This document shows, one piece after another, positions 15,136 through 64,000 of a stretch of DNA of 64,000 nt. The notes below the pieces were generated by a model. It saw nothing but the letters and a program-made list of their open reading frames with translations. It searched no databases and was not told where the DNA came from. The position numbers and the translations under genes are program-made. Source of the DNA: Endozoicomonas sp. 4G. GTDB lineage: Bacteria; Pseudomonadota; Gammaproteobacteria; Pseudomonadales; Endozoicomonadaceae. The stretch's first letter is position 1. The number at the start of each line of letters is the position of its first letter. The stretch is taken from the NCBI RefSeq assembly GCF_023822025.1, contig NZ_CP082909.1:2904001-2968000 (forward strand), given 5' to 3'.

Positions 15136-16557
15136 TCAGTCAGTCAGCCGGAAGGTAATAAAGGCGGATTGCCCACCACGAACCACTCTCATGGAAACCG
15201 AGCGATCCTCGGGAAGGTCAGCTACCACTTTGTCGAAATCCTTAACAGATTCAAGACGGATGTTGTTCAGGTTTGTGATAATGTCGCCCTGACGAAGACC
15301 AATGGATCGACCCACACCTGTCACCTCACCAGTCACCACGACGCCTTTAATCTCCTCGTCAAGACGCAACTTGTTGCGATTGTCGTCATTCAGGCCTTCA
15401 ACCTGGATGCCCAGGCGGTTCTTTTTCATATTCGGACCCAGAGGACGCTCTGAATGCGGCCCCTGCTCATCGGGCAGCTCACCCACTTCGACGCTGACGG
15501 TTTGTCTCTTGCCTTCACGAATCAGTTCCAGAGTCGCTTTGTCGCCGGGCTCGATAACACCGATAGCCATGGGTAGAGCACTGGACCTCATGATCTCGCG
15601 ACCATCGACACGGGTAATGATATCGCCGGGATGCAGCTTGACGTTGTCAGCAGGACCACCGGGGACAACCTGAGTGATCAGGGCCCCCATTGGCTTTTTA
15701 AGACCAAAGGACTCTGCCAGGTCACGATCCACCTCTTGAATAGCCACGCCGAGCCAGCCACGAGTGACGTAACCTTTTTCTTTAAGTTGTTCCACAGCCC
15801 ATTGAACATGGTCAGAAGGAATGGCGAAAGACAATCCCATGAAACCACCGGAGCGGGTAAATATCTGGGAATTGATACCAATGACTTCGCCCTTCATGTT
15901 AAACAGCGGCCCACCGGAATTACCAGGATTGATGGGCACATCTGACTGGATGAATGGAACGTAGGCATCGCTGGGCAGACTTCTGTCAAGAGCACTGACA
16001 ATACCTTTGGTGATGGAGTACTCAAAGTTAAACGGAGAACCGATAGCGGCTACCCACTGACCCGGCTTAACATCATCAGAGTCACCCATCTTGACTACAG
16101 GCAAATTGCCCTCACTCTCGATTTTAAGTAACGCCAGGTCAGAGCGTTTGTCGGCACCAATCAGCTCAGCCACTTTTTCACTGCGATCATGCAGTCTGAC
16201 AATGATTTTTTCTGCGCCTTCCACCACATGATTGTTGGTGAGAATATAACCATCCTTAGAGATGATAAATCCGGAACCCAGGGACATTGGCCGCGGCTTA
16301 CCTGAAGGAGCTTCAGGCATGGGCAAACCAAAGTAGCGACGGAATATCTCGGGCAGTTCTTCACCACCGGGACCATAAATCTGTGCACGACTCTGTTTTG
16401 GTGTCGATAGGGTACTGATATTAACGACAGCAGGGGAGGCTTCTTCAAATAATCGGGTAAAATTCGGTAACTCCCTGGCCTGAACCATTTGTACCGAAAG
16501 CAGTGAAAGACTCAGAAAATAAATAAAGTTCCTGAAGAGAAGGTTGACCCTGTTCAT
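15136..16557 (-). CDS. mucD: periplasmic serine protease/chaperone, DegP/MucD type
   Basis: Degrades or holds misfolded periplasmic proteins and restrains sigma-E activation. 473 residues. Signal peptide 1-27 (cleavage near VQA). Trypsin-like domain with His in TNNHVVEGAE, Asp in SDLALLK and Ser in NPGNSGGPLF. Two PDZ domains follow, about 265-355 and about 375-470. Sits below rseC as mucD does in Pseudomonas, 72 bases downstream, so it may also have its own promoter. Confidence 0.95.
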   Translation of the reverse strand: MNRVNLLFRNFIYFLSLSLLSVQMVQARELPNFTRLFEEASPAVVNISTLSTPKQSRAQIYGPGGEELPEIFRRYFGLPMPEAPSGKPRPMSLGSGFIISKDGYILTNNHVVEGAEKIIVRLHDRSEKVAELIGADKRSDLALLKIESEGNLPVVKMGDSDDVKPGQWVAAIGSPFNFEYSITKGIVSALDRSLPSDAYVPFIQSDVPINPGNSGGPLFNMKGEVIGINSQIFTRSGGFMGLSFAIPSDHVQWAVEQLKEKGYVTRGWLGVAIQEVDRDLAESFGLKKPMGALITQVVPGGPADNVKLHPGDIITRVDGREIMRSSALPMAIGVIEPGDKATLELIREGKRQTVSVEVGELPDEQGPHSERPLGPNMKKNRLGIQVEGLNDDNRNKLRLDEEIKGVVVTGEVTGVGRSIGLRQGDIITNLNNIRLESVKDFDKVVADLPEDRSVSMRVVRGGQSAFITFRLTD

Positions 16558-26505: not shown

Positions 26506-27540
26506 ATGCGCTTTGCATCCTTTATAAAGATTCTTTCAAGCCTGCTTTTAGCCTTGGCATTGTCTTTTTGTCCTGCTCTTTGTGCAGCGAATGATGAGAC
26601 CGGGGCAGATAGCCTGTTGCCCTACGATTCTCAGGAGCATACGGTCACGGACTACATAAAGTCATCAGGAGCCCGCGTTAAAGTCACAAAATTCATGAAA
26701 GGTTACTCCCTGACCACCTCTAAAAAAATATCCGTCTCCGTAAACCCCCTTGGCAAGTCCATGCGGGGGAGTCAGCCAATACACAAAATTGAGTCAAAAG
26801 TCCGCTTTCAAAGTGAAGAATCTGATTTTCTTTACTACACACTCAGAGGGGCTTTATTACAAGAGAGTTTATTCCATCTGGTTTTAATTACAGACCCGGA
26901 AGATTCCTCAAAATTGTACCTTGGTTACTACAAAGAGGATGAAAACAGTGTTATTGATACCAATGTTTCAAGTTCAACGGATGCGCTCATCTATTTGCAG
27001 GACGTTTTAAATAAGACTCATTTGACGTCCCATAGTACCATCAGGTCGCGGCGCCTGGTGTCAAAAGAGCATGAGCTTAAGCCCTTCAAATCTATCCTGA
27101 CTCTGGAAAAAGAGTTAGATTATTCAATCGAAGTCGTCTGGAAATCAAGAGCTGCCGTAACGTCGGTTGCCACGCCTGACACCTCAGCAGCCATTCCCGA
27201 AAATGTCGGCACACAGATTGTTGTCAAAGATAAAGAGGGCATAAGTCTGGCGGCATTAAATCTTGACCTTGAGCCAAGTTACTTTTCGTTCAGTGATAAA
27301 AACGGATATTTGCTGGAGTACAAGATTGATGGGACCGGGATTCATCGGCTCACTAAAATTCATACCGACACTGAATATAAAGACGGAGGTAAAACTGTTT
27401 CCCGCTCAGGACCTGACACTAGCTTCATTATCATAGCTGCCGTGATGATTGTTGGGGTTGGGTTAGCCTTCGCTACTTTGTACGCATTAGCAGACTGCTG
27501 GGCAGATCGTTTAGAGAGAAGACTTTACGAAAACCCATGA
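26506..27540 (+). CDS. paralogue 1 of a four-gene membrane-anchored secreted family
   Basis: 344 residues, no family recognised. Signal peptide 1-27 (hydrophobic LSSLLLALALSF, cleavage near CAA). Two conserved blocks follow: one beginning SLTTSKKISVSVNPLGKSMR and containing FLYYTLRG and LYLGYY (about 65-160), and one with TLEKELDYSIEVVWKSR through LDLEPSYFSFSDKNGYLLEY (about 200-290). A single transmembrane helix lies near 302-325, followed by a short basic tail. This predicts a type I membrane protein with most of its mass outside the cytoplasm. First of four tandem copies on the plus strand, which differ by loss or gain of whole segments. Confidence 0.75.
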   Translation: MRFASFIKILSSLLLALALSFCPALCAANDETGADSLLPYDSQEHTVTDYIKSSGARVKVTKFMKGYSLTTSKKISVSVNPLGKSMRGSQPIHKIESKVRFQSEESDFLYYTLRGALLQESLFHLVLITDPEDSSKLYLGYYKEDENSVIDTNVSSSTDALIYLQDVLNKTHLTSHSTIRSRRLVSKEHELKPFKSILTLEKELDYSIEVVWKSRAAVTSVATPDTSAAIPENVGTQIVVKDKEGISLAALNLDLEPSYFSFSDKNGYLLEYKIDGTGIHRLTKIHTDTEYKDGGKTVSRSGPDTSFIIIAAVMIVGVGLAFATLYALADCWADRLERRLYENP

Positions 27541-27617
27541 GTTTGATACCCGTGCAAGAGATCACATTTTAAAAAAATAACCACGAGTATTATTTATGCA
27601 ATCTACGAGCTCTTTAA

Positions 27618-27647
27618 TTGGACAGGTAAAAATATGCTGTCTAAGCT
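27618..27647 (+). repeat. upstream repeat of the paralogue family, copy 2
   Basis: TTGGACAGGTAAAAATATGC then TGTCTAAGCT, the same block as at 26424 and 30407. GGACAG and CTGTCT can pair. Confidence 0.5.
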
Positions 27648-27736
27648 TTCTGCTGGTCTGAACATACGGATCTGCTATGTCCGGCGAATAAATTTTTCTT
27701 TTGGTTTTAACCTCTTCAAGTGGTTTACATAGATTT

Positions 27737-29122
27737 ATGAAGATACTTTCAAGCCTGCTTTTGGCCTTGGTGCTCCCTTTTTGCTGTTCTCTTTGGGCTG
27801 AGAATGATCAGATCAGAGCAGATAGTCTGTTGCCATACGATCCTCAGGAGTACGACGCTCTTGAAGAAGGTGGTGTTGTTTCTGAAAGGAATAGAAGGGA
27901 AGCGCGAAGAGGCAGCAGCTCCTCAGGGGGCGGTTCGAAAGGAAGCGGTTCAAAAGGAAGTGCCAACAAATGGGGCGGTCACAGGTGGGGCGGTAACAAA
28001 GGAGGCGGTCATAGAGGAAGCGTTCGTAAGGTGACAAACTACATAAAATCATTAGCATCAGGCGCCAGAGTCAAACTCACAAAATTCATGAAAGGCTACT
28101 CCCTGACCACCTCTAAAAAAATATCCGTCTCTGTAAACCCGCTTGGCAGATCCCTGCGAGGGACTCAGCCAATCAACAAAATCGAGTCAAAAGTCCGATT
28201 TCAAAGTAAAGAGTCTGGTTTCCTTTACTACACACTCAGGGGATATTTATTAAGGGAGGCTTTGTTCCATCTGGTTTTAATTGGAGACCCGGAAGATTCC
28301 TCAAGATTGTATCTTGGTTACTATGAAGAGGATGAAGACAGTGTTATTGATACAGCCATTTCCAGATCAACGGCTCCGCCTGTCTATTTGCAGGATGTTT
28401 TAAATAAATCTGACACGCCGGTTCCCAATGGTGCTAACACCAATAGCACGGCTCTGCCACCTCAGTCTTCAAACGACACATTTATAAATGCTAATTTAAC
28501 TTCCCATAATACCACCGGGTCACAGGGTTTGATGCCAAAAAGAGGTGAGCGTAAGCCCTTCAAACCCATTCTAAGTTTGGAAAAAGATCAGGATTATTCA
28601 ATCGAAGTCGCCTGGAAATCAAAGTCTGAAATAACGTCGGTTGCCATGTCTGACACCAGTACAATGACGTATGCAACCATTAACCCTTCACCGACCCAGT
28701 CTTTATCACCACACTCTTCATCAATAGCCTCTTCGACGAGACAAATACTGCCAGACGCCTCAGCGGCCATTCCTGAAAATGTCGGCACACAGATTATTAT
28801 CAAAGATAAAGCAGGGATGACTCTGGCAACATTAAATCTTGACCTGGAGCCGAGTTACTTTTCGTTCAGTGATGAAAACGGATATTTGCTGGAGTACAGA
28901 ATTGATGGAAGCGAGATTCATCAGCTCACTAAAATTCATACCGAAACTGAATATGAGTACGGAGGTAGAAATGTTCCCCCCACTAAAAGTGATGACCTTA
29001 CCAATTCTATAATCATGGTTGCAACGATACCTTTTGGGACTGCAGTAGTCTTATTGGGTATGGTGGCATTAGTAGTTTATTGTCCGTATCATCGATCGCC
29101 GAAAGGTTACGAAAACCCCTGA
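27737..29122 (+). CDS. paralogue 2, longest member, with a basic Gly-rich insertion
   Basis: 461 residues from ATG 27737 (MKILSSLLLALVLPFC); an upstream TTG at 27701 is less likely. Same signal peptide, two conserved blocks and carboxy transmembrane helix as paralogue 1. Unique features are a Ser/Gly/Lys/Arg-rich stretch at about residues 50-100 (RREARRGSSSSGGGSKG, then GGHRWGGNKGGGHRG) and a Ser/Thr/Pro-rich linker before the second block. Function unknown. The basic stretch could bind nucleic acid, polysaccharide or a membrane surface, which is inference only. Confidence 0.72.
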   Translation: MKILSSLLLALVLPFCCSLWAENDQIRADSLLPYDPQEYDALEEGGVVSERNRREARRGSSSSGGGSKGSGSKGSANKWGGHRWGGNKGGGHRGSVRKVTNYIKSLASGARVKLTKFMKGYSLTTSKKISVSVNPLGRSLRGTQPINKIESKVRFQSKESGFLYYTLRGYLLREALFHLVLIGDPEDSSRLYLGYYEEDEDSVIDTAISRSTAPPVYLQDVLNKSDTPVPNGANTNSTALPPQSSNDTFINANLTSHNTTGSQGLMPKRGERKPFKPILSLEKDQDYSIEVAWKSKSEITSVAMSDTSTMTYATINPSPTQSLSPHSSSIASSTRQILPDASAAIPENVGTQIIIKDKAGMTLATLNLDLEPSYFSFSDENGYLLEYRIDGSEIHQLTKIHTETEYEYGGRNVPPTKSDDLTNSIIMVATIPFGTAVVLLGMVALVVYCPYHRSPKGYENP

Positions 29123-29278
29123 GTTTTTTTATAAACTTCTCTTTTTTCCAGTTGCAAAATCTATGGCAGCTTCCACTGCAATAGCCTTTTCAACGACAAT
29201 TAACAGATAGTTTGGTGCAGGGAAGCACCGGTATTCACCAACACTAAGTGCAACCTGAAATAAACACGAGTACCATTC

Positions 29279-30352
29279 ATGCAATACACAAGTAATTTAA
29301 TAAAACTTTCAACCCTGCTTTTCGCCTTAGTACTCCCTTTTTGTTCTTCTCTTTGGGCTGAGAATGTCTCCTTGACCACCTCTAAAAAAATATCTGTCTC
29401 CGTGAACCCGCTGGGTAAATCCATGCGAGGGAGTCAATCAATAAACAAAATTGAGTCAAAAGTCCGATTTCAAGGTAAAGAGTCTGATTTTCTTTATTAC
29501 ACACTCAGGGGCGATTCATTACGGGAGGCTTTGTTCCATCTGGTTTTAATTGAAGACCCGGGCGACTCCTCAAAATTGTATCTTGGTTACTATGAAGAGG
29601 ATGAAGACAGTGTTATTGATACAGCTGTTTTCAGCGCAACGGCTGCGCCCACTTATTTGCATGACGTTTTAAATAAGACTGACACGACAGTTTCCAATGC
29701 TAATGCCACCGGGTCGCCGGATTTGATACCCAAAAGACGCAAGCTTAAGCTCTTCAAACCCATTCTAAGTTTGGAAAAAGAGCAGGATTATTCAATCGAA
29801 TTCGTCTGGAAATCAAAGTCTGAAATAACCTCTGTTGCCATGTCCGACACCAGTACAATGACGTATGCAACCATCAACCCTTCACCAACCCGGTCTTTAT
29901 CACCAGAGTCTTCATCAATAGCCGCTTCGACCAGACAAATACCGCCAGACGCCTCAGCGGCCATTCCTGAAAGTGTCGGCACACAGATTATTGTCAAAGA
30001 TAAAGAGGGGATAACTCTGGCAACATTAAATCTTGACCTGGAGCCGAGTTACTTTTCGTTCAGTGATGAAAACGGATATTTACTAGAGTACAGAATTGAT
30101 GTAGGCGGGATTCATCAGCTCACTAAAACTCATAATGAAGCTGAACATGAGAACGAAGACAAAATAGGTTCCTCTCAAGAAGAATATGACACTAACGGTC
30201 GTATAATCGTAATCTTAGTTTCCGTGATAGTTTCTGTGTGTGTGCTCACCCACATCACCGTATCAATGGCAGAATATTATGAGAAGAATCGGATGACGAG
30301 GCTTAACGGAAACCGGAGCTCACATATGATGAGAGTGATCATTATCAATTAG
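29279..30352 (+). CDS. paralogue 3 of the membrane-anchored secreted family
   Basis: 357 residues. The signal peptide (MQYTSNLIKLSTLLFALVLP) joins directly to SLTTSKKISVSVNPLGKSMR, so the variable segment between signal and first block in paralogues 1 and 2 is missing. The DNA around the start matches a site further upstream of paralogue 2 (ATGCAATCTACGAG), which indicates a deletion that fused the old leader to the gene. Both conserved blocks are present, then a transmembrane helix and a basic tail near 318-357. Confidence 0.72.
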   Translation: MQYTSNLIKLSTLLFALVLPFCSSLWAENVSLTTSKKISVSVNPLGKSMRGSQSINKIESKVRFQGKESDFLYYTLRGDSLREALFHLVLIEDPGDSSKLYLGYYEEDEDSVIDTAVFSATAAPTYLHDVLNKTDTTVSNANATGSPDLIPKRRKLKLFKPILSLEKEQDYSIEFVWKSKSEITSVAMSDTSTMTYATINPSPTRSLSPESSSIAASTRQIPPDASAAIPESVGTQIIVKDKEGITLATLNLDLEPSYFSFSDENGYLLEYRIDVGGIHQLTKTHNEAEHENEDKIGSSQEEYDTNGRIIVILVSVIVSVCVLTHITVSMAEYYEKNRMTRLNGNRSSHMMRVIIIN

Positions 30353-30406
30353 ATGCACAAAGCAATAGCTTTGCCGCATCATGAGTTGATCATGGGAGTG
30401 CTCTGA

Positions 30407-30436
30407 TTGGACAGCTAGAAATATGCTGTCTAAGCT
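30407..30436 (+). repeat. upstream repeat of the paralogue family, copy 3
   Basis: TTGGACAGCTAGAAATATGC then TGTCTAAGCT, before paralogue 4. Same block as at 26424 and 27618. Confidence 0.5.
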
Positions 30437-30528
30437 TTCCGCTAGTCCGAGCACCCGAACAAGCTGTTGTGTCCGGGAGATAACTTCTTCTTTTGGTTTT
30501 TAACTTCTTCAGGTGGTTTGCATCGTTT

Positions 30529-30954
30529 ATGAAGATACTTTCAAGCCTGCTTTTCGCCCTGATGCTCCCTTTTTGCTCTTCTCTTTGGGCTGAGAATGTC
30601 ACCCTGACAACCCCTAAAAAAATATCTTTCTCCATAAACCCGCTGGGTAAGCCCTTGCGATCCAGGGATGAAAACGGATCTTTGCTGGAGTACAGAATGG
30701 ATGAGGACGGGATTCATCAGCTCACTAAAACTTATAATGAAACTGAACATGAGAACGAAGATACAATGGTTCCCTCTCAAGAAGAGTCTGACACTACCAA
30801 TTCTACAGCCGCAATCGTAGGTTGCACGGTAGTTTTTATGTGTGTGCTCACCTGCGTCGCTATATACACAGTAGCAGAACCTTATAAGAGGTATCGGATA
30901 GCAAGGCTTAACAGAAACCCGAGCTTATACATCAGAATAATCATTACCCATTAG
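30529..30954 (+). CDS. paralogue 4, internally deleted short member
   Basis: 141 residues from ATG 30529 (MKILSSLLFALMLPFC). It keeps the signal peptide and the first few residues of block 1 (LTTPKKISFSINPLGKPLR), then jumps to the end of block 2 (DENGSLLEYRMDEDGIHQL) and the carboxy transmembrane helix. About 200 residues of ectodomain are missing but the frame is kept. Either a decayed copy or a minimal membrane protein; the open frame and its standard upstream repeat leave both possible. Confidence 0.65.
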   Translation: MKILSSLLFALMLPFCSSLWAENVTLTTPKKISFSINPLGKPLRSRDENGSLLEYRMDEDGIHQLTKTYNETEHENEDTMVPSQEESDTTNSTAAIVGCTVVFMCVLTCVAIYTVAEPYKRYRIARLNRNPSLYIRIIITH

Positions 30955-54907: not shown

Positions 54908-55364
54908 GGCTTATCGCTCAGTCTCGTTTGATGAAAAGTTTCGATGAAAATCAGGAAATATCACTTCAGCTGCTTATACTCCTGAATCAGGAATATTTGC
55001 TTCAGGCAGTAAGAGAAAGGAATGATTTCCACAATAAAAAACAGCCGGTCATTCTACCTGATCGACCCAAGCGTTGGAATGACAGAAAAATGAAAGCCAA
55101 TTTTTTTTAGGGCCTGATAAAAATTCCGGGAACATTTTCAACAATAGGCGGTCGAACCCACCACAACAGTAACAAACAACCATGGATGCAACACAAATGA
55201 TTAAACAGAAACTGACAGCTCTGGCGCTAACCCTTCCCCTGACTGCTCTGTCTCTCGCCGGTTTTGCCAATGAAGAAGAGCCAAAGCCGGATGAGACTGA
55301 TAAAAGCGAATGGGTCATCAACCTTCAGAGCCTGGTTGCTCAAATCGAAGATTCCACTGAAGAA
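54562..55364. repeat. 803 bp tandem duplication, unit B
   Basis: Second unit, offset by 803 bases from unit A. Carries a cut prfB 5' end and the start of the intact small gene. Confidence 0.93.
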
Positions 55365-55412
55365 GATGATGACGAGCCTTTTACCGACGAAACTTACTTC
55401 CACTTAACTTAA
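55182..55412 (+). CDS. small secreted acidic protein
   Basis: 76 residues from ATG 55182, or 71 from ATG 55197. Signal peptide [20 protein letters not shown], then a short acidic mature part ([29 protein letters not shown]). No family recognised. It reads divergently from prfB, and its 5' part is duplicated at 54379. Confidence 0.6.
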   Translation: MDATQMIKQKLTALALTLPLTALSLAGFANEEEPKPDETDKSEWVINLQSLVAQIEDSTEEDDDEPFTDETYFHLT

Positions 55413-55578
55413 ACCGTTCACGTCTGCTGTAGCCTGACAGTACGCAGACACCAGCGACACGGAAGGTCACACGAGAGGATCTCTGACGTTACCCATTCAT
55501 AAGACTTAAAGAGAATTGGGAAGGCACTCCACTGCCTGAACTCGGGATCCAGGTATCTAATTAAAACAATCAATTATC

Positions 55579-55660
55579 TATAAAGCCCCTACGCCTTCTG
55601 CCATTTAGTTCTTCTAAGTGATTGTTTGGTGGCAGCAGGGGTGGACGTAGAGGCTTTATA
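55579..55660. repeat. inverted repeat before the zinc-finger gene
   Basis: TATAAAGCCCCTACG (55579-55593) and CGTAGAGGCTTTATA (55646-55660) are complementary at 14 of 15 positions, with a 52-base centre that has weaker inner pairing. The right arm ends 19 bases before the start of the next gene. It could be a large operator, a folded leader or a small element remnant. Confidence 0.6.
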
Positions 55661-55679
55661 AATAGGAAGAACATTTCGC

Positions 55680-56408
55680 ATGACTAACGAATTAACGACT
55701 AACGAAACCGACGATACCGCAGTAGCAGCTGCCGCAGGATCTGACCCGGTTTTAAGATACTGCCAACGCTGTGAGAAGCCGACTGAACGATATGCCTGCA
55801 ATACCCGATGCAAGCTGTGCCACAAAAAGCTATCAAGAGTAAAGAACTATCAGCGTATCAACAATGATGGCACACCATTGTTAGACTGCCTGGACACCGC
55901 CGAATTTGAAGGCTACGTCTTTAGAATAATCAACAAGAAGACCGGTCAGTTTTTTGTAGGGTCAGGACTGAATAGATTACCAGGGCAAATCCATATAGTT
56001 ATCCTGCAAGCCAAGCAAAAGCAGAAGACCACCAGCGCAAGTTACGCAATGGTCCGCCAAACACTTAAGCATGGCGATGAGTCAGACCTGACGATCGAAC
56101 AAATCGAGACAGAGCCTTTCACTCTCGAAAACAGAGACGAGGTGGCGATTAAGCTGGAGGTTCTGAAAGAGGACTACCTGCTTCATGTGTGCATGGGAGA
56201 TCCCTTATGCCTGAACAACAAGACAGCTTCGGCCATCTTGGGAGACCCTGCAGACAAGGTTATGCCCGACGCTGATCCTGCCGCCCCTCTGCCTGAACAG
56301 CACGTCCCCCCATCGCTATCTGAGGACATGACAGAACCCTATTCACCGCCTGAGGCAAGGAAGAAGCAGAAGAGCCTAACGCTCTATGGCTCTTCTGAAA
56401 GGCGGTAG
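55680..56408 (+). CDS. zinc-finger protein with a GIY-YIG-like domain
   Basis: 242 residues, family uncertain. A four-Cys cluster CQRCEKPTERYACNTRCKLC (about 28-47) looks like a zinc finger. Residues about 78-180 follow the GIY-YIG pattern: GYVFRIINKKTGQFFVGSG in place of GIY...YIG, a middle helix (SASYAMVRQTLKHG), and KLEVLKEDYLLHV...CLNNK like the Glu-bearing end of that fold. The catalytic Tyr pair is only partly kept, so nuclease activity is doubtful. The carboxy tail is Pro/Glu-rich. Its last 33 bases overlap the dinG end on the other strand. Confidence 0.55.
   Translation: MTNELTTNETDDTAVAAAAGSDPVLRYCQRCEKPTERYACNTRCKLCHKKLSRVKNYQRINNDGTPLLDCLDTAEFEGYVFRIINKKTGQFFVGSGLNRLPGQIHIVILQAKQKQKTTSASYAMVRQTLKHGDESDLTIEQIETEPFTLENRDEVAIKLEVLKEDYLLHVCMGDPLCLNNKTASAILGDPADKVMPDADPAAPLPEQHVPPSLSEDMTEPYSPPEARKKQKSLTLYGSSERR
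56368..56396. terminator. hairpin shared by two convergent gene ends
   Basis: AGAAGAGCC (56368-56376) pairs exactly with GGCTCTTCT (56388-56396) around 11 bases, inside the coding overlap of the zinc-finger gene and dinG. Possible two-way terminator. Confidence 0.45.
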
Positions 56409-58517
56409 AGAATCCAGAATCATACGACCGTATCTGGCTGTGATCACTCTTCGGTCCAACAAGGTGATCTGGCCGATATCCTGTTCGGTTCTCAATAAAC
56501 GACCACAGGCCTGTACCAGCTTGATGGCTGCATCCGGAACCGTTATTTCCATAAATGGATTTCGGCCCTGTGCCTCAAGCCATTCTGACAGTGCCGATTC
56601 CACAGGATCATCAGGCACCGCAAAAGGAATTTTGGCGATGATAACATGCTCACAATACTCACCTGGCAGGTCGATCCCCTCCGCCAGACTGGCAAGACCA
56701 AAGAGTATGCTGTCTTTACCTTCATCAATATTCTTGCGATGCAGTTTCAGCAGTTCTGCCCGCGAATAATCATCCTGTAAAAGAATCTTCCTGCGCCATG
56801 CATCATCCAGACCAAAATGCACATCTTTCATCTGCTTACGTGATGAAAAAAGTACCAGAGTACCTTTTTGTGTGGACATCAGGTCAGGCAACCTTTCAAC
56901 GATTTCTTCCGTATGTTCCTCACTCCGACGAGGATCTGACAACATATCCGGCACCACCAGCTGAGCTGCATGGCTGTGCTGAAAAGGACTGGGAACCACC
57001 ACACACCGTGACTCGGACGGAATCCCGGAGCGCATACGAAAACGATTGAAATTCCCCAGGGCGGTGAGCGTGGCAGAAGTGACAATGGATGCGTAACCCG
57101 GATTCCAGAGCGTCTGCCAGAGCGTTGCCGAAGAAAGAATGGGACTGCTGAAAACCTCCAGTTCCTCACCAAAAGGCCCTTCGCTCCATTTCAGCCAGCG
57201 GGCACTGGGTGGCTCACCTTCAGGGTCTTTCATGGTGTAGGTCAACCAGAGTTGAAACTGGTTCTCCAGACGCATTTGCATCGCGCCAATTTCCGGAAAC
57301 AGTTGCTCTGCCTGCCAACGGTCAATGCCGGGAACCTCTCCATCCATCGCCTCATTCAGTTCTTTGGCGACCTTTTCAATCATCCCACTGCATCGACTGA
57401 AGCTGACTTTAAGCACTTCAGCCTGCTGACGGACGGCTTCGGGCACCTTTCCCTGTGGAAAGCGATAAACTGCAACCGTCGTATCGCCCTGAACTCGAGG
57501 CTCAAAGGTTGCGATCTCCTGTAACAGCGTCCGGGTATGACCGAGGGCATTGACCAGTTCGTCAAACTCAGGCATGAGTTTTTCAAGCCTTTCACCCAAC
57601 TCGCCAGGCAGGGCATTCTGGGACAGGGTTTTCTTCAGGTACTGACTGGCCTTCTCCAGCCAGCTGGCCGTTCCTTTTAACCGGGAATGACAGGCGAAGT
57701 GATCAATGGCCTTGTCTGGCAGATGATGACCTTCATCAAAGACGTAAACCGTATCTTTAGGGTCAGGCAAAATAGCGCCACCACCCAAAGCCAGGTCAGC
57801 CAGTACCAGGTCATGATTGGTAACGACTACGTCGGCCTGCTCAAGATCTGCCCGGGCTTTGAAGAAAGGACACTGATTAAAATAACCGCACCGTCGGCCA
57901 CTGCATTGGGCATGATCTGTGGTGATCATTCGCCATTGTTGATCTTCCAAAGCATCGGGCCAGCTGTCCCGATCACCTTCCCACTTGGAAGCGGAAAAGT
58001 CTTCTAACATATTCTGGTAGAGCTTCAGGGAGGACTCGTCCTGCTTCAGAGTAAAACCGTCCCCGGCAAACATATCCATTAATGAGGCGGTTGACTGCTC
58101 TTCCTGCAACAATCGGTCAAGTTTGCTCAAACAAACGTATCGTCCACGTCCTTTGGCCAGGGTAAAAGAGAACTTAAGTCCGGTTTTCAGGATAATATCG
58201 GGCAGGTCCTTGCCAATAATCTGCTCCTGAAGCGTCACCGTCGCTGTTGAGATCACCAGCCTTTTGTCAGCAGCCTGGGCCATGACGACAGAAGGCAGAA
58301 CGTAACCTACCGTTTTACCAGTACCGGTCCCGGCTTCGACCACAATAACAGAGGGATCAGACGTTCTACGCCCTTCAGCATCAGTCTCAACCTCTCCCAG
58401 GGAACGGGCAACTTCTGCAATCATCTGTTTCTGGCCGGGCCGCGCCTTCAGCTTTTTGCTGGCCAGAAATGTGCTGTACGCTTTCTGGATCTTCTTTTTC
58501 TGTGAATCTTCAAGCAC
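56376..58517 (-). CDS. dinG: ATP-dependent DNA helicase DinG
   Basis: XPD-like 5'-3' helicase that resolves R-loops and D-loops. GTG 58517, with GGGTGAT upstream, gives 713 residues (716 in E. coli); a TTG at 58592 would add 25 unconserved residues. Walker A VVEAGTGTGKTVGYVLP, Fe-S cluster cysteines near residues 110-225 (RGRYVCLSK, CSGRRCGYFNQCPFF), DEGH as motif II (VYVFDEGHHLPD), and QACGRLLRTEQDIG as motif VI. Confidence 0.95.
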   Translation of the reverse strand: MLEDSQKKKIQKAYSTFLASKKLKARPGQKQMIAEVARSLGEVETDAEGRRTSDPSVIVVEAGTGTGKTVGYVLPSVVMAQAADKRLVISTATVTLQEQIIGKDLPDIILKTGLKFSFTLAKGRGRYVCLSKLDRLLQEEQSTASLMDMFAGDGFTLKQDESSLKLYQNMLEDFSASKWEGDRDSWPDALEDQQWRMITTDHAQCSGRRCGYFNQCPFFKARADLEQADVVVTNHDLVLADLALGGGAILPDPKDTVYVFDEGHHLPDKAIDHFACHSRLKGTASWLEKASQYLKKTLSQNALPGELGERLEKLMPEFDELVNALGHTRTLLQEIATFEPRVQGDTTVAVYRFPQGKVPEAVRQQAEVLKVSFSRCSGMIEKVAKELNEAMDGEVPGIDRWQAEQLFPEIGAMQMRLENQFQLWLTYTMKDPEGEPPSARWLKWSEGPFGEELEVFSSPILSSATLWQTLWNPGYASIVTSATLTALGNFNRFRMRSGIPSESRCVVVPSPFQHSHAAQLVVPDMLSDPRRSEEHTEEIVERLPDLMSTQKGTLVLFSSRKQMKDVHFGLDDAWRRKILLQDDYSRAELLKLHRKNIDEGKDSILFGLASLAEGIDLPGEYCEHVIIAKIPFAVPDDPVESALSEWLEAQGRNPFMEITVPDAAIKLVQACGRLLRTEQDIGQITLLDRRVITARYGRMILDSLPPFRRAIER

Positions 58518-58838
58518 TGTGCTGATCACCCACAGGCACGAAGAGATTCCACAATGCTGAAAGCCAGAATAAAACCACCACTGCTTTGCCAAAGCCCATG
58601 TATCTGATCCTCTAAGTAAAATGACATTCTATCTAAAAGCCATCACTCCTGCTCGTAGAATGCTGCAATTATTCTCTGGCCTGAAGGCTGGTTTAGCTTT
58701 CGAATTGGCGCCCATCAGGAAACCTTCCTATATTGATTCAGGATTTTAGATGCTGTTGACCCACTTCGCAGGGCAACGGCTCAGACAATCAGGGAAGTGA
58801 CACCAAAACAACCCCTCAAATACTAAGGTATAAACAAC
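58518..58838. other. intergenic region and leader before serpin 1
   Basis: 321 bases. The 3' third (from 58720) is homologous to the leaders of the other serpin genes; see 58727-58838. The rest shows nothing I can name. Confidence 0.5.
58727..58838 (+). promoter_or_regulatory. conserved leader of serpin 1
   Basis: CCTATATTGA at 58727, 112 bases before the GTG start, then an imperfect hairpin GTTGACC...GGGCAAC (58755-58777) and AAGGTATAAACAAC before the start. The same order and spacing occur before 60431 and 63642. TATATT could be a -10 box. Confidence 0.55.
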
Positions 58839-60209
58839 GTGGTTTTACTCAGAAAATCTTCCGACCCAGTCTGTCGGGACAGAGTCGTTCTGGTGTTGGC
58901 CCTTTTACTCTGCTCGCTGGCTGTACATGCTCAAAATGACATAGTGTCATGTCCCCACTGCGGCTTTCCTTACTATAAAAAAGAATATGCATCCTGCCCA
59001 TCCTGCAAACTGCTTGATCCTGGTCGACCAAAGCAGCAAGCTGCACCTTCGACAAGTCAAACATGCAGCTCTACTGACGATCAGGAAGACTTTACATTCC
59101 ACCCGGCGATCCCCCTTCAACATGACACAGCACCTTCCCAAGCCGTAACAACAGTAAATCCTGATGCACAGATGGATGAATCGCTGAGAAACCTGGAGTT
59201 TGCCGTCAATGTTTTTAGCCGTGCAGCCCCCAATATTCCAGAAAATTTTGTCCTATCCCCTGATAGTTTTTTTCAGACACTGGCATTGTCAGTATTAAAT
59301 GCGGGTGCTGACGGTGCCACCGAGCAATGGCGTCGCATTGGACAGGACACACACGCTTTTGCGCAAAGCTTACTGGCAGCCGGTCAGCTTGAGCCTCAGG
59401 CAATTTACAAAGAGAGACTTAAGCAAATACACGACGATCTTCGTGATAACGTCAACTTGATGAAACTCACACCCATGCATAGCCTGGCCCGGGAGCTCAA
59501 CGGACTCTTTTGCCAATTAACCCATGGTATGGTGCAACGTTTTTGCAATCCCATCGCTTATCCCTTGTCAAGATGCGTAGAACTCATAGCTTCTATTTAC
59601 TTCACAGATCTTCTGGAAAGATCTCGCGGGACCGAACATGAAGCTTTATTTACCTTGCCCGATGGCCAGGCAGCCCTTGTAAACAGAATTATGGATGGAA
59701 AAATTAATCCTTCACAATACACTCATCACAATGATTGGGAAGCATTTGCCTTTCCCTACCTCAAAAATGATGAAGTCATTCTGATTTTCCCCCCGGCAGG
59801 AGTATTGCTTCATACATTAAGGCTAGAAACAATAAGGACATTATTATCATCATTAAACGCCAGAGAATCCTTTCCATCCAGCTCAACCGTGACTTCTGAA
59901 CTTCCACTCCCTGACATTGATACAAACATTGACTTGAGCGAAGCTTTAAGTGGGTCAGCTTCAGGATTAGCTGCGGTTGTTACCAGCGGACTGAGTTCAG
60001 GCACTATGTCAGCTGTACCTGCTCTTATGAGTGCGCTTAGCAAACAAGCTGCCCCGAGCGCAGCTTCAACAGGCGCTGGCTCTAAGAGAACACATGAGGG
60101 AGATACAATACCATCAATGCGATTTGATCGACCCTCTATTTATATGTTGCGTAATAACATAACAGAAAGAATCTTCTATATCGGACAGATACTTACCCCC
60201 CTGAGATAG
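58839..60209 (+). CDS. secreted serpin-like protein with zinc-ribbon amino terminus
   Basis: 456 residues from a GTG start. Signal peptide 1-31 (LVLALLLCSLAVHAQ). Zinc-ribbon-like CPHC (38-41) and CPSC (53-56), then a linker to 115. Residues 118-456 follow the serpin fold: NLEFAVNVF...NFVLSPDSFFQTLALSVLNAGADGATEQ (helix A to helix D entry), NGLFCQLTHGMVQRF and IASIYF (helix F and strand 3A), FTLPDGQ...FPYLKNDEVILIFPPAG (sheet B), VTSELPLPDI and IDLSEAL, then a small-residue hinge (APSAASTGAG), a loop SKRTHEGDTIPS and the terminal RFDRPSIYMLRNNITERIFYIGQILTP. The segment between helix D and F is shorter than usual. Serpins trap serine or cysteine proteases. The hinge departs from EEGTEAAA, so inhibition is unproven. 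Confidence 0.78.
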   Translation: MVLLRKSSDPVCRDRVVLVLALLLCSLAVHAQNDIVSCPHCGFPYYKKEYASCPSCKLLDPGRPKQQAAPSTSQTCSSTDDQEDFTFHPAIPLQHDTAPSQAVTTVNPDAQMDESLRNLEFAVNVFSRAAPNIPENFVLSPDSFFQTLALSVLNAGADGATEQWRRIGQDTHAFAQSLLAAGQLEPQAIYKERLKQIHDDLRDNVNLMKLTPMHSLARELNGLFCQLTHGMVQRFCNPIAYPLSRCVELIASIYFTDLLERSRGTEHEALFTLPDGQAALVNRIMDGKINPSQYTHHNDWEAFAFPYLKNDEVILIFPPAGVLLHTLRLETIRTLLSSLNARESFPSSSTVTSELPLPDIDTNIDLSEALSGSASGLAAVVTSGLSSGTMSAVPALMSALSKQAAPSAASTGAGSKRTHEGDTIPSMRFDRPSIYMLRNNITERIFYIGQILTPLR

Positions 60210-60316
60210 CCGTTCGGAATTGAGTACCGCCCAGTGCACCATTTCGATAAAATTGAAACCGTACTAGTCGAGACAACGATCTTGAAAAACACCTTGAGCA
60301 CTCATCAAAAAACTGT

Positions 60317-60430
60317 CCTATATTGACCTCGGACTTCACGTTCGGTTGACCATCCCCACAGGTCAACGATTCAGTAGGCAAGGAAGCTATTCCAAGAACA
60401 ATCCTTAAATCAAGACAATAAGGTACAGAT
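60317..60430 (+). promoter_or_regulatory. conserved leader of serpin 2
   Basis: CCTATATTGA at 60317, 114 bases before the GTG; hairpin GTTGACC (60345-60351) with GGTCAAC (60361-60367), loop ATCCCCACA; AAGGTACAGAT ribosome binding region. Almost the same sequence as before 63642. Confidence 0.6.
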
Positions 60431-60685
60431 GTGATTTTACCTGGTAAATCTTCCGATTCAGTCTGCCGGTACAAGAGCGCCCTGATGTTAGTCTCTCTGT
60501 TCTGTTTCCTGCTGCAACCCTCACAACTTCTGGCTGTGATTTGTGACCGATGCGGCCTGGATTACGATGATGGCACCTTTTTATCCTGCCCATCACCGTC
60601 GTGTAAAACAGAGGCTGAGGATAATCCCCATCAAAGTGAAACAGCACCTTCTCCAGCGATTCCCGCACTTAATACGACAATGTAA
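60431..60685 (+). pseudogene. serpin 2 amino-terminal fragment
   Basis: 84 residues from GTG: signal peptide (ALMLVSLFCFLLQPSQLLA), a CDRCGLDYDDGTFLSCPSPSC zinc-ribbon unit and the start of the linker (ETAPSPAIPALN), then a stop just before the transposon region. It lacks the whole serpin fold. Confidence 0.7.
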
Positions 60686-60794
60686 GTATTTTATTCAAAT
60701 TCGTGCTCAGGAGTTAGCGGCCAGCAAAAACCCTGCACCCCAGGTACATTAACAAGTACTATTGTCCCCTGAAAACCTTGGCTACATTACTTTT

Positions 60795-62144
60795 CTATGA
60801 AGTGTTAATTTGAACCCTACCAGGCTTTATGCCATATATGAGCGCATCGAACAATTCATCCCAACCTTCGAGCATCCAGGACAGGAATACCCGTGTAATC
60901 ACCTTCCATAGGTACGTTCGGACGCCCCTCGCTCGCTCCTTCAGCGCCTTTTTGAATTCCGGGCTGGCCATTTCCTGGATTTGATCAACCATGAAGGCCA
61001 GGAACGTCAGGTAAGCCAGGTTGGTTGCCAGGTGCTGCTTCCCGTGACCATAGTTGTGTTCAAGGCTGTAGCCTTGGTTTTTCAGGGTGTTAAACGTTTG
61101 GTTCTCGATGTGCCAGCGGCAACGACCTCCTCTCATGACAGCTTCAACGGTATCTTTGGTTAACTCAATATCTGTGACCCAGCACCAGGTGTGGCGTTTG
61201 CCTTCACTGTCTGTCTCCACGTAATCAAGGACATTGACATTTTGGGTCAACTTGGAGGCATTCAGCGGTACATCATTAGCGAAACGAAACCAGTGCCTGG
61301 TTCCTTGCTCTTCATCAATGATTTTATGATAACTGAGCTGTTCCTGGTCACACAGCGCATCCATCGCCTCGATAAGGGATTTGTGGTTGCCATCTTTAGC
61401 CACAATGATGAAGTGCCAGCCATAGCTCTTGATCAACTCAATAGTAGGATTGTCAGCAAAAAGCCCATCCAGGAGTATGACCAGTTTTAAATGAGGGTGC
61501 TCTCTCTTGACGTGCGCCAGGTAGCGCTTGATGGCATTCTGTTCGCAGTCATTCTTGTTGTCGCCGTCCTGTTGAACAATCGCCTCTGGGGCAAAGGGCA
61601 TGACGACTTTTTGATCCGGGTGAACAATACAGCCGCCCAATAAGTTGTGGTAGTAAGCTTCATTGGGTTTCCCCTTGTTTTTTACACAACACTCTTGGCA
61701 TCGGCATTTACCTGAGTAGAAGAGGCCGGTGCCATCAACCGGCATCAGGTACCAGTCTTTCAAGTCACCACACTGGTACTCGAAGGCTTTAAGAAGCTTG
61801 TTACGCTGAATCAGGGAGAATAACTTCTTGAAGGGCTTGCGAAACTGTGCAGGCTCAATGGGATCAAGCACTTCTCTCATGCGTGTATCACAGGGTACTT
61901 TCTGATCTTGGACGTGATACATAGTCGCCAGGTTATGAAGAATAACCGGGTCGGCACGGTCAGAGTCAAAGGTCAGAAGGGAATCGTACTTCTGATGCAT
62001 CATGGCAAAAGCGGATTTTGCAAAGTTGGGAAAGGGAATCCCATTAGGGCAATGGTTAGGCCGGTGATCTGGAATCTCATCAAGGCACTTGCAAACCTGA
62101 TCGATTAGGTTTGCTGCGTTAAGGTGTTTGCTGACTTTGGGCAT
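60795..62144 (-). CDS. DDE transposase, IS4-like
   Basis: 449 residues from ATG 62144 (MPKVSKHLNAANLIDQV). Catalytic residues are visible as Asp in PVDGTGLFYSG, Asp in LVILLDGLFADNP and Glu in CRWHIENQTFNTLKNQGY, the last being the IS4-type R-x3-E block. A Cys cluster (CRCQECC) follows the first Asp. I could not find clear terminal inverted repeats or a target duplication, so the element's ends and exact family remain open. Inserted between serpin 2 fragments. Confidence 0.85.
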   Translation of the reverse strand: MPKVSKHLNAANLIDQVCKCLDEIPDHRPNHCPNGIPFPNFAKSAFAMMHQKYDSLLTFDSDRADPVILHNLATMYHVQDQKVPCDTRMREVLDPIEPAQFRKPFKKLFSLIQRNKLLKAFEYQCGDLKDWYLMPVDGTGLFYSGKCRCQECCVKNKGKPNEAYYHNLLGGCIVHPDQKVVMPFAPEAIVQQDGDNKNDCEQNAIKRYLAHVKREHPHLKLVILLDGLFADNPTIELIKSYGWHFIIVAKDGNHKSLIEAMDALCDQEQLSYHKIIDEEQGTRHWFRFANDVPLNASKLTQNVNVLDYVETDSEGKRHTWCWVTDIELTKDTVEAVMRGGRCRWHIENQTFNTLKNQGYSLEHNYGHGKQHLATNLAYLTFLAFMVDQIQEMASPEFKKALKERARGVRTYLWKVITRVFLSWMLEGWDELFDALIYGIKPGRVQINTS

Positions 62145-62209
62145 GGCTGTGATCACAAAAGTACGACAGTGTTTTCATGCCTTCAATATAGAGCTAAAAA
62201 GTCTGCGAA

Positions 62210-63478
62210 GTGTTTTTTTTTGAGTGCGCTGGAGGCTATGCGGCTCAAAGGCTTAAAAAAACAGCGGGAATTGCTGCACCTTCTCAATCCGCTACACCTG
62301 TAAGTCCTGGTGCACAGGCAGATGAATCGCAGGAAAACCTGGAGTATGCCGTGAATGTATTTGCCCAGGCAGCAACTAATATCCCTGAAAATTTTGTCAT
62401 GCCCCCTGATGCACTTTTTCAGACAGTGGCACTGTTGCTGTTACATGTGGGCGCTGACGGTGCGAACGAGCAATTGAGTCAAATTTATCTGGGAGAGGAT
62501 TGTTCTGAGCAATCCGGTGCAACAGCGTCAGGTGCAACAGCGTCAGGTGCAACAGCGTCAGGTGCAGCAGCCCGTGGACGGCGCACATACTCTGCTACGT
62601 ATGACGTGTTCGCAGCCAGGCCACTTGAGCCTCTGGCAGTTTATAAACAGAGAGTGTTACAAATAATCGACGATATTCGTAGCAATGGCGACTACACCTA
62701 TGCTGAAGGTCCAAAAAGGTTGGCTCAGGAGTTCAACAAACAATTTTTCCAGTTAACTCGTGGCATGATTCGAGATTATTGCAACCGAAACCCTCACCAC
62801 TTAGATGCATCCGTAGAGCTCTTGAGTAGTTTTTACTTAATAGGGCTGTGGAGGAAGTCTGTTGAGACCCACAGGGCCCACGGTGCAAATATATTTTGCT
62901 TACCCAGAGATCAAGCAGACGCTGTACAAAGAATCATGTTCAAAAAAACTAATCAGTCTCAATACGCTCATCTCAATGACTGGCAAGCGTTTACTTTTCC
63001 CTACCAGGAAGATCATGAAATAATTTTGGTACAACCTCCTGAAGGAATACCACCTTATGCATTAAGGACAGAAATATTAAGGGTATTATTATCATCATTA
63101 GACGCCGAAGAATCTTTTCCATCCAGCTCAACCGTAACTTCTGAACTTCCATTCCCTGATGTTGATATAAACACTGACCAGAACGAAGCGTTAAGTCGAT
63201 CAGGTTCAGGCTTACTTGCTGCGGTTACCAGCGACCTGAGTTCAGGTGCTATGCCAGCAGTACCTGTTCGTATGAGTATGTTCAGCAAACAAGCAGCCCC
63301 GAGCGCAGCTTCAACACGCGCTGGCTCCAAGAGAACACATGAGGGAAATACAATACCATCAATTCGCTTTGATCGACCCGTGATTTATATATTGCGTCAT
63401 AAAATAAAAAATAGAATCATCTATATTGGGCAGATACTTTTCCCCGGAGATGACTCTTCGGAATCGAGTACCGACTAG
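62210..63478 (+). pseudogene. serpin 2 carboxy-terminal part, 5' end lost
   Basis: The open frame begins at a GTG next to a 9-T run (62210) and has no signal peptide or zinc ribbon; its first 25 residues match nothing in the other copies. From AAPSQSATPVSPGAQADES on it is closely related to serpin 1 over the whole fold and ends ...RFDRPVIYILRHKIKNRIIYIGQILFPG. A (GATAS) tandem repeat sits in the helix D region. The linker is present both here and in the fragment at 60431, so this is not a clean split of one gene. The 422-codon frame is intact and could still be translated as a cytoplasmic protein. Confidence 0.7.
62516..62570 (+). repeat. 15 bp tandem repeat inside serpin 2
   Basis: GGTGCAACAGCGTCA three times, then a partial fourth (62516, 62531, 62546, 62561). 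Encodes GATAS repeats absent from serpin 1. Confidence 0.85.
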
Positions 63479-63527
63479 CCGGGACAACTATCTTGGAAAA
63501 CACCGTGGGCACTCATCAGAAAACTGT

Positions 63528-63641
63528 CCTATATTGACTCCGAACTTCACGTTCGGTTGATCATCCCCACAGGTCAACGATTCGGTAGACAAGGAAGCTA
63601 TTCCAAAAACAACCCTTAAATCAAGAAAATAAGGTACAGAT
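63528..63641 (+). promoter_or_regulatory. conserved leader of serpin 3
   Basis: CCTATATTGA at 63528, 114 bases before the GTG; hairpin GTTGATC (63556-63562) with GGTCAAC (63572-63578), where a C to T change keeps pairing as U-G; AAGGTACAGAT before the start. Confidence 0.6.
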
Positions 63642-64000
63642 GTGGTTTTACCTGATAAATTTTCCGATTCAGTCTGCTGGTACAAGAGCGCCCTGGTGTT
63701 AGTCTCTCTGCTCTGTTTGCTGTTGCAACCCTCACAACTTCTGGCTGTAACTTGTGATAAATGCGGCCTTTTTTACGATGAAAACGACTACACATCCTGC
63801 CCATGGCAGAACTGTTATTTAGCAGAAGAGTATCGCGTCTCCCTACCTGTAACCTGTGGCGAATGCGGCCTTGCTTACGATCGGGAAGACTTTGCATCCT
63901 GTCCAGCACCGTCGTGTAGTCAGGATGATGAGGATGAGCTCTCGCAACATGGCTCATCACCTTCTCAGGCGTCACCAACAGCAAACCATGACTCAAACTC
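63642..64000 (+). CDS. serpin 3, 5' part, cut by the window end
   Basis: At least 119 residues from GTG. Signal peptide (LVSLLCLLLQPSQLLA), then two zinc-ribbon units in a row (CDKCGLFYDENDYTSCP...NC and CGECGLAYDREDFASCP...SC) where serpins 1 and 2 have one, then the Ser/Gln-rich linker (SSPSQASPTANHDSN). The serpin fold itself would lie beyond 64000; calling it a serpin rests on homology of leader, signal, ribbon and linker. Confidence 0.65.
   Translation, partial: MVLPDKFSDSVCWYKSALVLVSLLCLLLQPSQLLAVTCDKCGLFYDENDYTSCPWQNCYLAEEYRVSLPVTCGECGLAYDREDFASCPAPSCSQDDEDELSQHGSSPSQASPTANHDSN

Follow-up and report, generated by a model that had tools for sequence, protein, structure and literature searches.

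A serpin-family island in Endozoicomonas sp. 4G: seven tandem paralogues, four of them lacking residues ahead of the reactive loop

What does a run of tandem serpin genes do in a gammaproteobacterium, and are all of its members inhibitors of proteases? The question is raised by the right-hand end of a 64,000-nucleotide stretch of Endozoicomonas sp. 4G (bases 2904001-2968000 of a 6.0 Mb, single-contig genome; hereafter the window), in which an earlier reading, made from the sequence alone, had proposed a tandem set of secreted serpin-like genes that could block proteases of a host or of the cell itself. We report that the set is a genomic island of seven paralogues, S1 to S7, and that its members are of two kinds. 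With a little better than even confidence, we read S5-S7 as inhibitors and S1-S4 as short-loop proteins that act as binders or substrates, with the proteases of the host as their likeliest targets.

Both frames on which the sequence-only reading was built, S1 and the frame at 62210-63478 (422 amino acids), belong to the serpin family: they exceed the curated PF00079 cut-off of 27 bits with E values of 1e-10 and 4.3e-10, respectively (scores in Table 1). Among solved chains a conserpin variant scores best against S1, aligned over residues 118-454 (E 2.2e-7); no serpin frame exceeds any NCBIfam cut-off and Rfam gives no match at gathering score in 55000-64000. A genome-wide search for the Serpin family returned 12 rows, ten of them genes above the cut-off (30.1-212.7 bits) and one of the two weak rows being N-terminal S1. 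Seven of the ten genes form the tandem array (genome positions 2962839-2975873) and three are dispersed. The tandem arrangement is therefore real and larger than had been proposed, and the third related gene that had been noted downstream is S3, which straddles the window end; the window holds the left part of the array and S4-S7 lie wholly outside it. The frame at 62210 fared less well as a gene: its start codon and first codons are those of an insertion sequence (IS), to the left of which lies the leader of S2, and the frame is the 3' piece of the IS-interrupted S2 and not a gene of its own.

That a serpin runs from end to end in these frames had been read by eye. The family match speaks for membership of the serpin family, as does the C-terminal strand of the F-x-R-P type, a signature of serpins, which is present in the alignment with the Phe after the Pro replaced by Ser in S1, Val in S2 and Leu in S3 and S4; directly before the hinge, however, the two frames are not typical. 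When the 23 array proteins from three species were aligned with dispersed members, nine proteins proved to lack about ten residues (2 + 8) at this site: S1-S4 of the window genome (G000; S2 taken from its 3' piece), S1-S4 of a second array-bearing genome of the genus (G002) and S2 of a third, Endozoicomonas sp. ISHI1 (G003). Typical members read like Q-H-C-A-I-E-V-N here, and S5-S7 are undeleted. We take the missing segment to be strand s5A, which leads into the reactive loop and whose full length before the loop is expected of inhibitory serpins. The distance between a conserved Gly preceding s5A and the F-x-R-P strand is 38 residues in eight of the nine deleted proteins, 35 in the remaining one and 46-49 in 12 of the 14 typical proteins; the other two typical proteins were mis-read by the span pattern and are full-length in the alignment. 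S1 also lacks 20 residues further upstream that are present in its close relative G003_S1.

The nine deleted proteins, together with the undeleted G003_S1, form a clade with support of 100/100 in a maximum-likelihood tree calculated without the loop columns. The input comprised 51 rows, 26 array or dispersed proteins and 25 of 56 search matches (those omitted being array-gene repeats, fragments and further distant family members), from which seven rows, six distant or fragmentary proteins and G000_d5360, were left out of the tree. This short-loop clade of 10 proteins was compared with a typical set of 14, of which 13 come from the arrays of the three species and one is a dispersed gene at 4677 kb.

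All 14 typical proteins have the hinge Gly, Thr and P12 Ala; in the clade these residues are found in 4/10, 3/10 and 0/10, respectively, and several clade hinges contain proline. The inhibitory hinge motif ExGTEAAAA (P17-P9; PMC8233489) is absent from S1-S4, and S5-S7 match it at E, G, T and three Ala but not at P13 and P9. The clade loop carries the motif G-S-x-R-T-H, whose Arg and His are each present in all ten proteins, and an Arg stands at the probable P1 of 11 of the 14 typical members. Over eight columns that begin with the probable P1 Arg, identity amongst the typical proteins is 28%, against 62% in the body of the protein, and amongst the clade it is 62%, against 53% in the body. When eight-column windows were slid along the alignment (346 in all), the loop window (columns 707-714) was the most conserved in the clade relative to the typical set and the hinge window (columns 698-705) was among the five least conserved. 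We infer from the alignment that the loop Arg is P1, which holds only if the hinge and P1 are one residue closer together than is usual, as occurs in some serpins.

We propose that S5-S7, which with their relatives in the two other species keep the hinge, vary in the exposed loop and mostly have Arg at the probable P1, would trap trypsin-like proteases by the usual suicide mechanism of serpins; they have the sequence features that an inhibitory serpin needs, and the probable P1 Arg would suit such targets. In S1-S4 the loop would, after the loss of about ten s5A residues, be too short for insertion into sheet A, and loop insertion is probably lost, because with the strand under the loop shortened the hinge residues would have to fill the sheet. 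Removal of more than two loop residues turns alpha-1-antitrypsin from inhibitor into substrate, according to the portion of the source available (PMC4493575), and by analogy the shortening of s5A should have the same or a stronger effect. The fixed Arg-Thr-His loop of S1-S4 would bind one fixed partner, be it a trypsin-like protease or not, either reversibly or in the manner of a substrate, and S1-S4 would thus be substrate-like or binding proteins beside the true inhibitors S5-S7. The likeliest targets would be proteases of the marine animal host, by analogy with the response of the Endozoicomonas marisrubri serpins to host extract (PMC9296628). The earlier suggestion of a protease block is plausible for S5-S7, with the hinge kept; for S1, S2 and S3 the standard suicide mechanism is unlikely because s5A is lost, and the inhibitor reading suits the members beyond the window more than those within it. 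A bolder idea, to which we give rather less than an even chance, is that a serpin lineage without the part of s5A used in loop insertion has exchanged a fast-changing bait loop for a fixed Gly-Ser-x-Arg-Thr-His, and a metastable one-shot trap for a stable protease- or receptor-binding scaffold, beside canonical serpins of the same island.

Several observations weigh against this account of the array. G003_S1 keeps s5A and yet lies inside the short-loop clade, beside S1 and G002_S2, so a single clean loss does not explain the history; two changes are required on the tree, and either the strand was regained in G003_S1 by recombination or s5A was lost twice. S2 is broken by an IS. Some deleted proteins, such as G002_S3, keep a near-normal hinge after the gap, and of the five windows with the lowest relative conservation in the clade, all but the hinge window fall at columns 585-595, so that constraint has been lost elsewhere in the domain too. 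The conserved Arg becomes P2 when the hinge Thr is counted as P14. The ratio of nonsynonymous to synonymous substitution (dN/dS) of the protein body is higher in the clade, which fits decay as well. Finally, the consequence drawn from the deletion rests on general serpin anatomy, and AlphaFold2, as the kind of structure prediction that the sequence-only reading had put forward as a check, was uninformative either way, with a pLDDT of 34.5 (serpin domain of S1) and 34.4 (typical control), both from alignments of 9 sequences.

The most serious competitor, though in our estimate a doubtful one with perhaps a quarter of the weight, is that S1-S4 are decaying duplicates under relaxed selection, with no function of their own and kept by recent duplication and gene conversion. 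Besides the interrupted S2 and the prolines in the hinges, it gains from a remnant in the ISHI1 genome (C32:54761-55175, L053) that matches residues 1-82 and 405-452 of S1, and from the dN/dS of the body, which is higher in the clade than in the typical members. The pooled dN/dS values for the clade are 1.09 in the hinge, 0.66 in the loop and 0.72 in the body and for 11 of the 14 typical proteins 0.35, 0.93 and 0.45, respectively; the pools contain related pairs and are descriptive, and by this measure the clade loop is about as constrained as the clade body and not more. Against decay, dN/dS lies below 1 in all 45 clade pairs (median 0.70) and, in four pairs that were bootstrapped, only 0 to 2.3% of resamples reached 1, a further pairwise computation having covered 17 chosen pairs. 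In neutral simulations of S1 at three divergences the mean number of stops was between 4.4 and 7.6, and stop-free runs made up 0 to 1.3%. Eight of the nine deleted frames are uninterrupted, their 5' ends included, and S2 alone is cut. Nor does conversion account well for the invariant Arg and His: dS is similar across the clade regions (0.37-0.46; loop 0.40, body 0.45), which argues against gene conversion as the cause of loop conservation.

It is unlikely, more so than decay, that the serpins guard the cell against its own exported proteases, or regulate these, rather than acting on those of the host. Such a role has been raised for a sponge-symbiont archaeon with serpins beside its own secreted proteases, in the section of the source at hand (PMC6790972), and the window does contain a gene for a trypsin-fold protease with PDZ domains (DegP/HtrA-like; 15139-16557). 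However, this gene is about 42 kb away and the array is present in only three of ten genomes of the genus. DegP/HtrA-like proteases are a widespread type. None of the nine upstream proteins that were profile-scanned between 33 and 56.4 kb is a protease, a result for those nine and not for the right flank, and the loops of the typical members, which vary as described above (28% identity, body 62%), suit changing, external targets. That all array members, the two reported frames included, are ordinary inhibitory serpins is disfavoured and in our view very improbable: all seven array genes of the window genome exceed the Pfam cut-off, but 9 of the 23 array proteins of the three species are without the ten or so s5A residues, most of them with a degraded hinge.

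The features of the window at this locus are collected in Table 1.

Table 1. Positions (in window coordinates) of the serpin genes, the insertion sequence and the left flank.
Feature	Position	Strand	Evidence or remark
dinG-like helicase gene, left island flank	56376..58592	-	orthologue in 10/10 genus genomes
S1, zinc-ribbon-like/serpin gene, short-loop type, intact, 456 aa	58839..60209	+	PF00079 41.9 bits
S1 GTG start and hydrophobic leader ending A-V-H-A	58839-58931	+	read by eye
S1 zinc-ribbon-like cysteine motif C-x2-C-x11-C-x2-C	58950..59006	+	pattern scan; PF14446 22.7 bits, below cut-off 29.1
S1 loop	60042..60110	+	alignments; loop span 38 aa against 46-49 in typical members
S1 loop, 8-residue part of putative s5A loss	between codons 60042-60044 and 60045-60047	+	2 more residues missing upstream
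S1 loop invariant residues	Arg 60087-60089, His 60093-60095	+	alignments
S2 5' piece (leader peptide, zinc-ribbon-like motif), interrupted by IS	60431..60653	+	
9-bp target duplication, left copy	60645..60653	+	
IS element, 1,623 bp, inverted ends	60654..62276	-	ends set by window and four other genome copies
DDE transposase of IS	60795-62156	-	PF01609 (DDE_Tnp_1) 30.7 bits, cut-off 23
9-bp target duplication, right copy	62277..62285	+	identical to left copy
S2 3' piece: serpin domain, short-loop type, separated from leader	62277..63478	+	PF00079 39.8 bits for 62210 frame
S3 5' part (leader peptide, two zinc-ribbon-like motifs)	63642..64000	+	gene end at G000:C1:2969120; whole S3 PF00079 61.9 bits

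The IS that cuts S2 has five more near-full copies and some fragments elsewhere in the genome, of which one copy (L099, on the opposite strand) was left out of the comparison of ends; its transposase exceeds the cut-off of no NCBIfam IS family. The upstream and 5' regions of S2 and S3 are 89% identical over 300 nt (60263-60562 and 63474-63773).

The proteins of the array share an architecture in which a leader peptide is followed by a cysteine-rich, zinc-ribbon-like segment, a polar linker and the serpin domain. Each uninterrupted array gene encodes a hydrophobic N-terminal leader that has no lipobox, as read by eye, which suggests that the proteins are exported; in G002_S5, G003_S4 and G003_S7 the listed frame begins further upstream than the leader. 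An alignment of 13 leaders (S1-S7 and six of the nine from G002), in which only those of S4 and G002_S2 differ from the rest, suggests that most array genes have a promoter of their own. One or two C-x2-C...C-x1-4-C motifs were found by pattern scan in most array proteins, namely, in the window genome, in S1, S3, S5, S6, S7 and the 5' piece of S2, with half a motif in S4; G002_S8, G002_S9, G003_S6 and G003_S7 have none, and matches starting within the leader of G000_d4677, G002_S7, G003_S4 and G006_single are false. We call the cysteine segment of S1 zinc-ribbon-like only, because its best profile, PF14446 (Prok-RING_1), scores below its own cut-off (Table 1). Of the serpin-domain genes outside the array, one dispersed in the window genome (G000:C1:5359593-5360672, L051; 103 bits) is without a leader peptide by eye, and its product is possibly cytoplasmic or exported by another route. 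Lower-scoring serpin-domain frames occur elsewhere in the family of the organism, one of them within a frame of 1059 amino acids (G009).

Serpins had been described as sparse in Gammaproteobacteria, and so they are, with matches in 10 of the 368 other genomes that were sampled evenly across the class; yet they are common in the family of the window, with matches in 19 of 35 other genomes (20/36 with its own). These 20 are all of the matches among 57 genomes of the family and order, the 21 genomes from other families of the order having none. A search of 37 family genomes with S1 matched five, all within the genus, and the array itself is found in three of the ten genus genomes examined (G000, G002 and G003). 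A scan of a genome collection gave 24 pattern matches, three of which were confirmed; they represent two loci, both from the ISHI1 array. Amongst solved structures the matches of typical members are headed by conserpin and neuroserpin, the PDB being rich in animal serpins. Other carriers were considered and rejected as an origin: S1 has no tblastn match in a phage collection and none of 38 IMG/VR pattern matches was confirmed, and 17 plasmid records match S7 at 22-27% identity only.

The array is a lineage-specific island of low GC content, which in steps of 1,500 bases is 0.42-0.45 over S3-S7 and 0.46-0.48 over S1, the IS and S2, against 0.51-0.54 in the flanks. In the window genome it lies between a dinG-like gene and the locus of a TAXI transporter; the flanking genes, presumably dinG, TAXI, YchJ and SRAP, are named from their sequences. 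The TAXI-type solute-receptor gene is found in eight of the ten genus genomes, and in the seven that are free of the array it lies 1.6 to 4.5 kb from the dinG-like gene. In the five of these seven intervals that were searched (tblastn with 26 serpin proteins, E <= 0.01) there is no trace of a serpin. In G002 and G003, dinG is followed by a small gene and a YchJ-like gene, then by the array, with an SRAP-type gene beyond it, and no TAXI gene was found at E <= 1e-100. Between the first two serpin genes of G002 (L052:3651-3826) there is a stretch resembling the 3' end of the YchJ-like gene, which suggests duplication from the left edge of the island. To the left of the island, between a release-factor gene and the dinG-like gene, is a frame of 242 amino acids (55680-56408, + strand) with no Pfam match at E 1e-5. 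The window holds a second tandem array at 26506-30954 (+ strand), of four paralogous frames with leader peptides, the three larger of which are 54-73% identical and have no Pfam match above cut-off.

Serpins of Endozoicomonas as such are already known, and the new element here is the short-loop bacterial clade. The comparisons that follow draw on the available parts of the sources cited. Endozoicomonas marisrubri 6c, of the same genus, likewise has several serpin genes, which are differentially expressed with coral tissue extract and for which a block of host proteases was proposed (PMC9296628); in that part of the account there is no tandem array, zinc-ribbon-like segment or member without s5A, and individual genes were not matched to ours (PMC9296628). 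Serine protease inhibitors are also described from Ca. Gorgonimonas (PMC12491435). An expanded serpin set in a symbiont of a marine animal is shared with Ca. N. ianthellae, a sponge-symbiont archaeon with 15 serpin genes, nine of them predicted to be extracellular (PMC6790972), although those serpins are archaeal and often stand beside subtilisin-like (S08A) proteases (PMC6790972), a pairing that did not turn up in the neighbours that were scanned here. The inhibitory hinge motif is common to almost all hub-like prokaryotic serpins (PMC8233489). Miropin, the siropins and other prokaryotic serpins of Groups S-U share the hinge Glu, Gly, Thr and P12-P10 Ala with S5-S7 (PMC8233489), whereas S1-S4 differ from the hub-like serpins in that the motif is absent. 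The silkworm serpin18 resembles S1-S4 in having a short loop, about 7 residues below the usual length, and a mechanism unlike the standard trapping of serine proteases (PMC4493575), but it is an insect protein with a cysteine protease as its target, and it undergoes digestion itself (PMC4493575), and the clade described here differs from it in having lost about ten residues from the strand before the loop and in keeping the loop Arg. In the accessible portions of the open-access literature, taken as main texts without supplements, we found no such array, zinc-ribbon-like fusion or short-loop clade of bacterial serpins.

These bacteria allow one to ask whether selection can maintain a serpin that no longer has its conformational trap. 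Typical and short-loop paralogues stand side by side in three related species and, with G003_S1 as a possible intermediate, make up a natural series. The same genes provide a set of expressible proteins with which to ask how a symbiont of marine animals deals with the proteases of its host.

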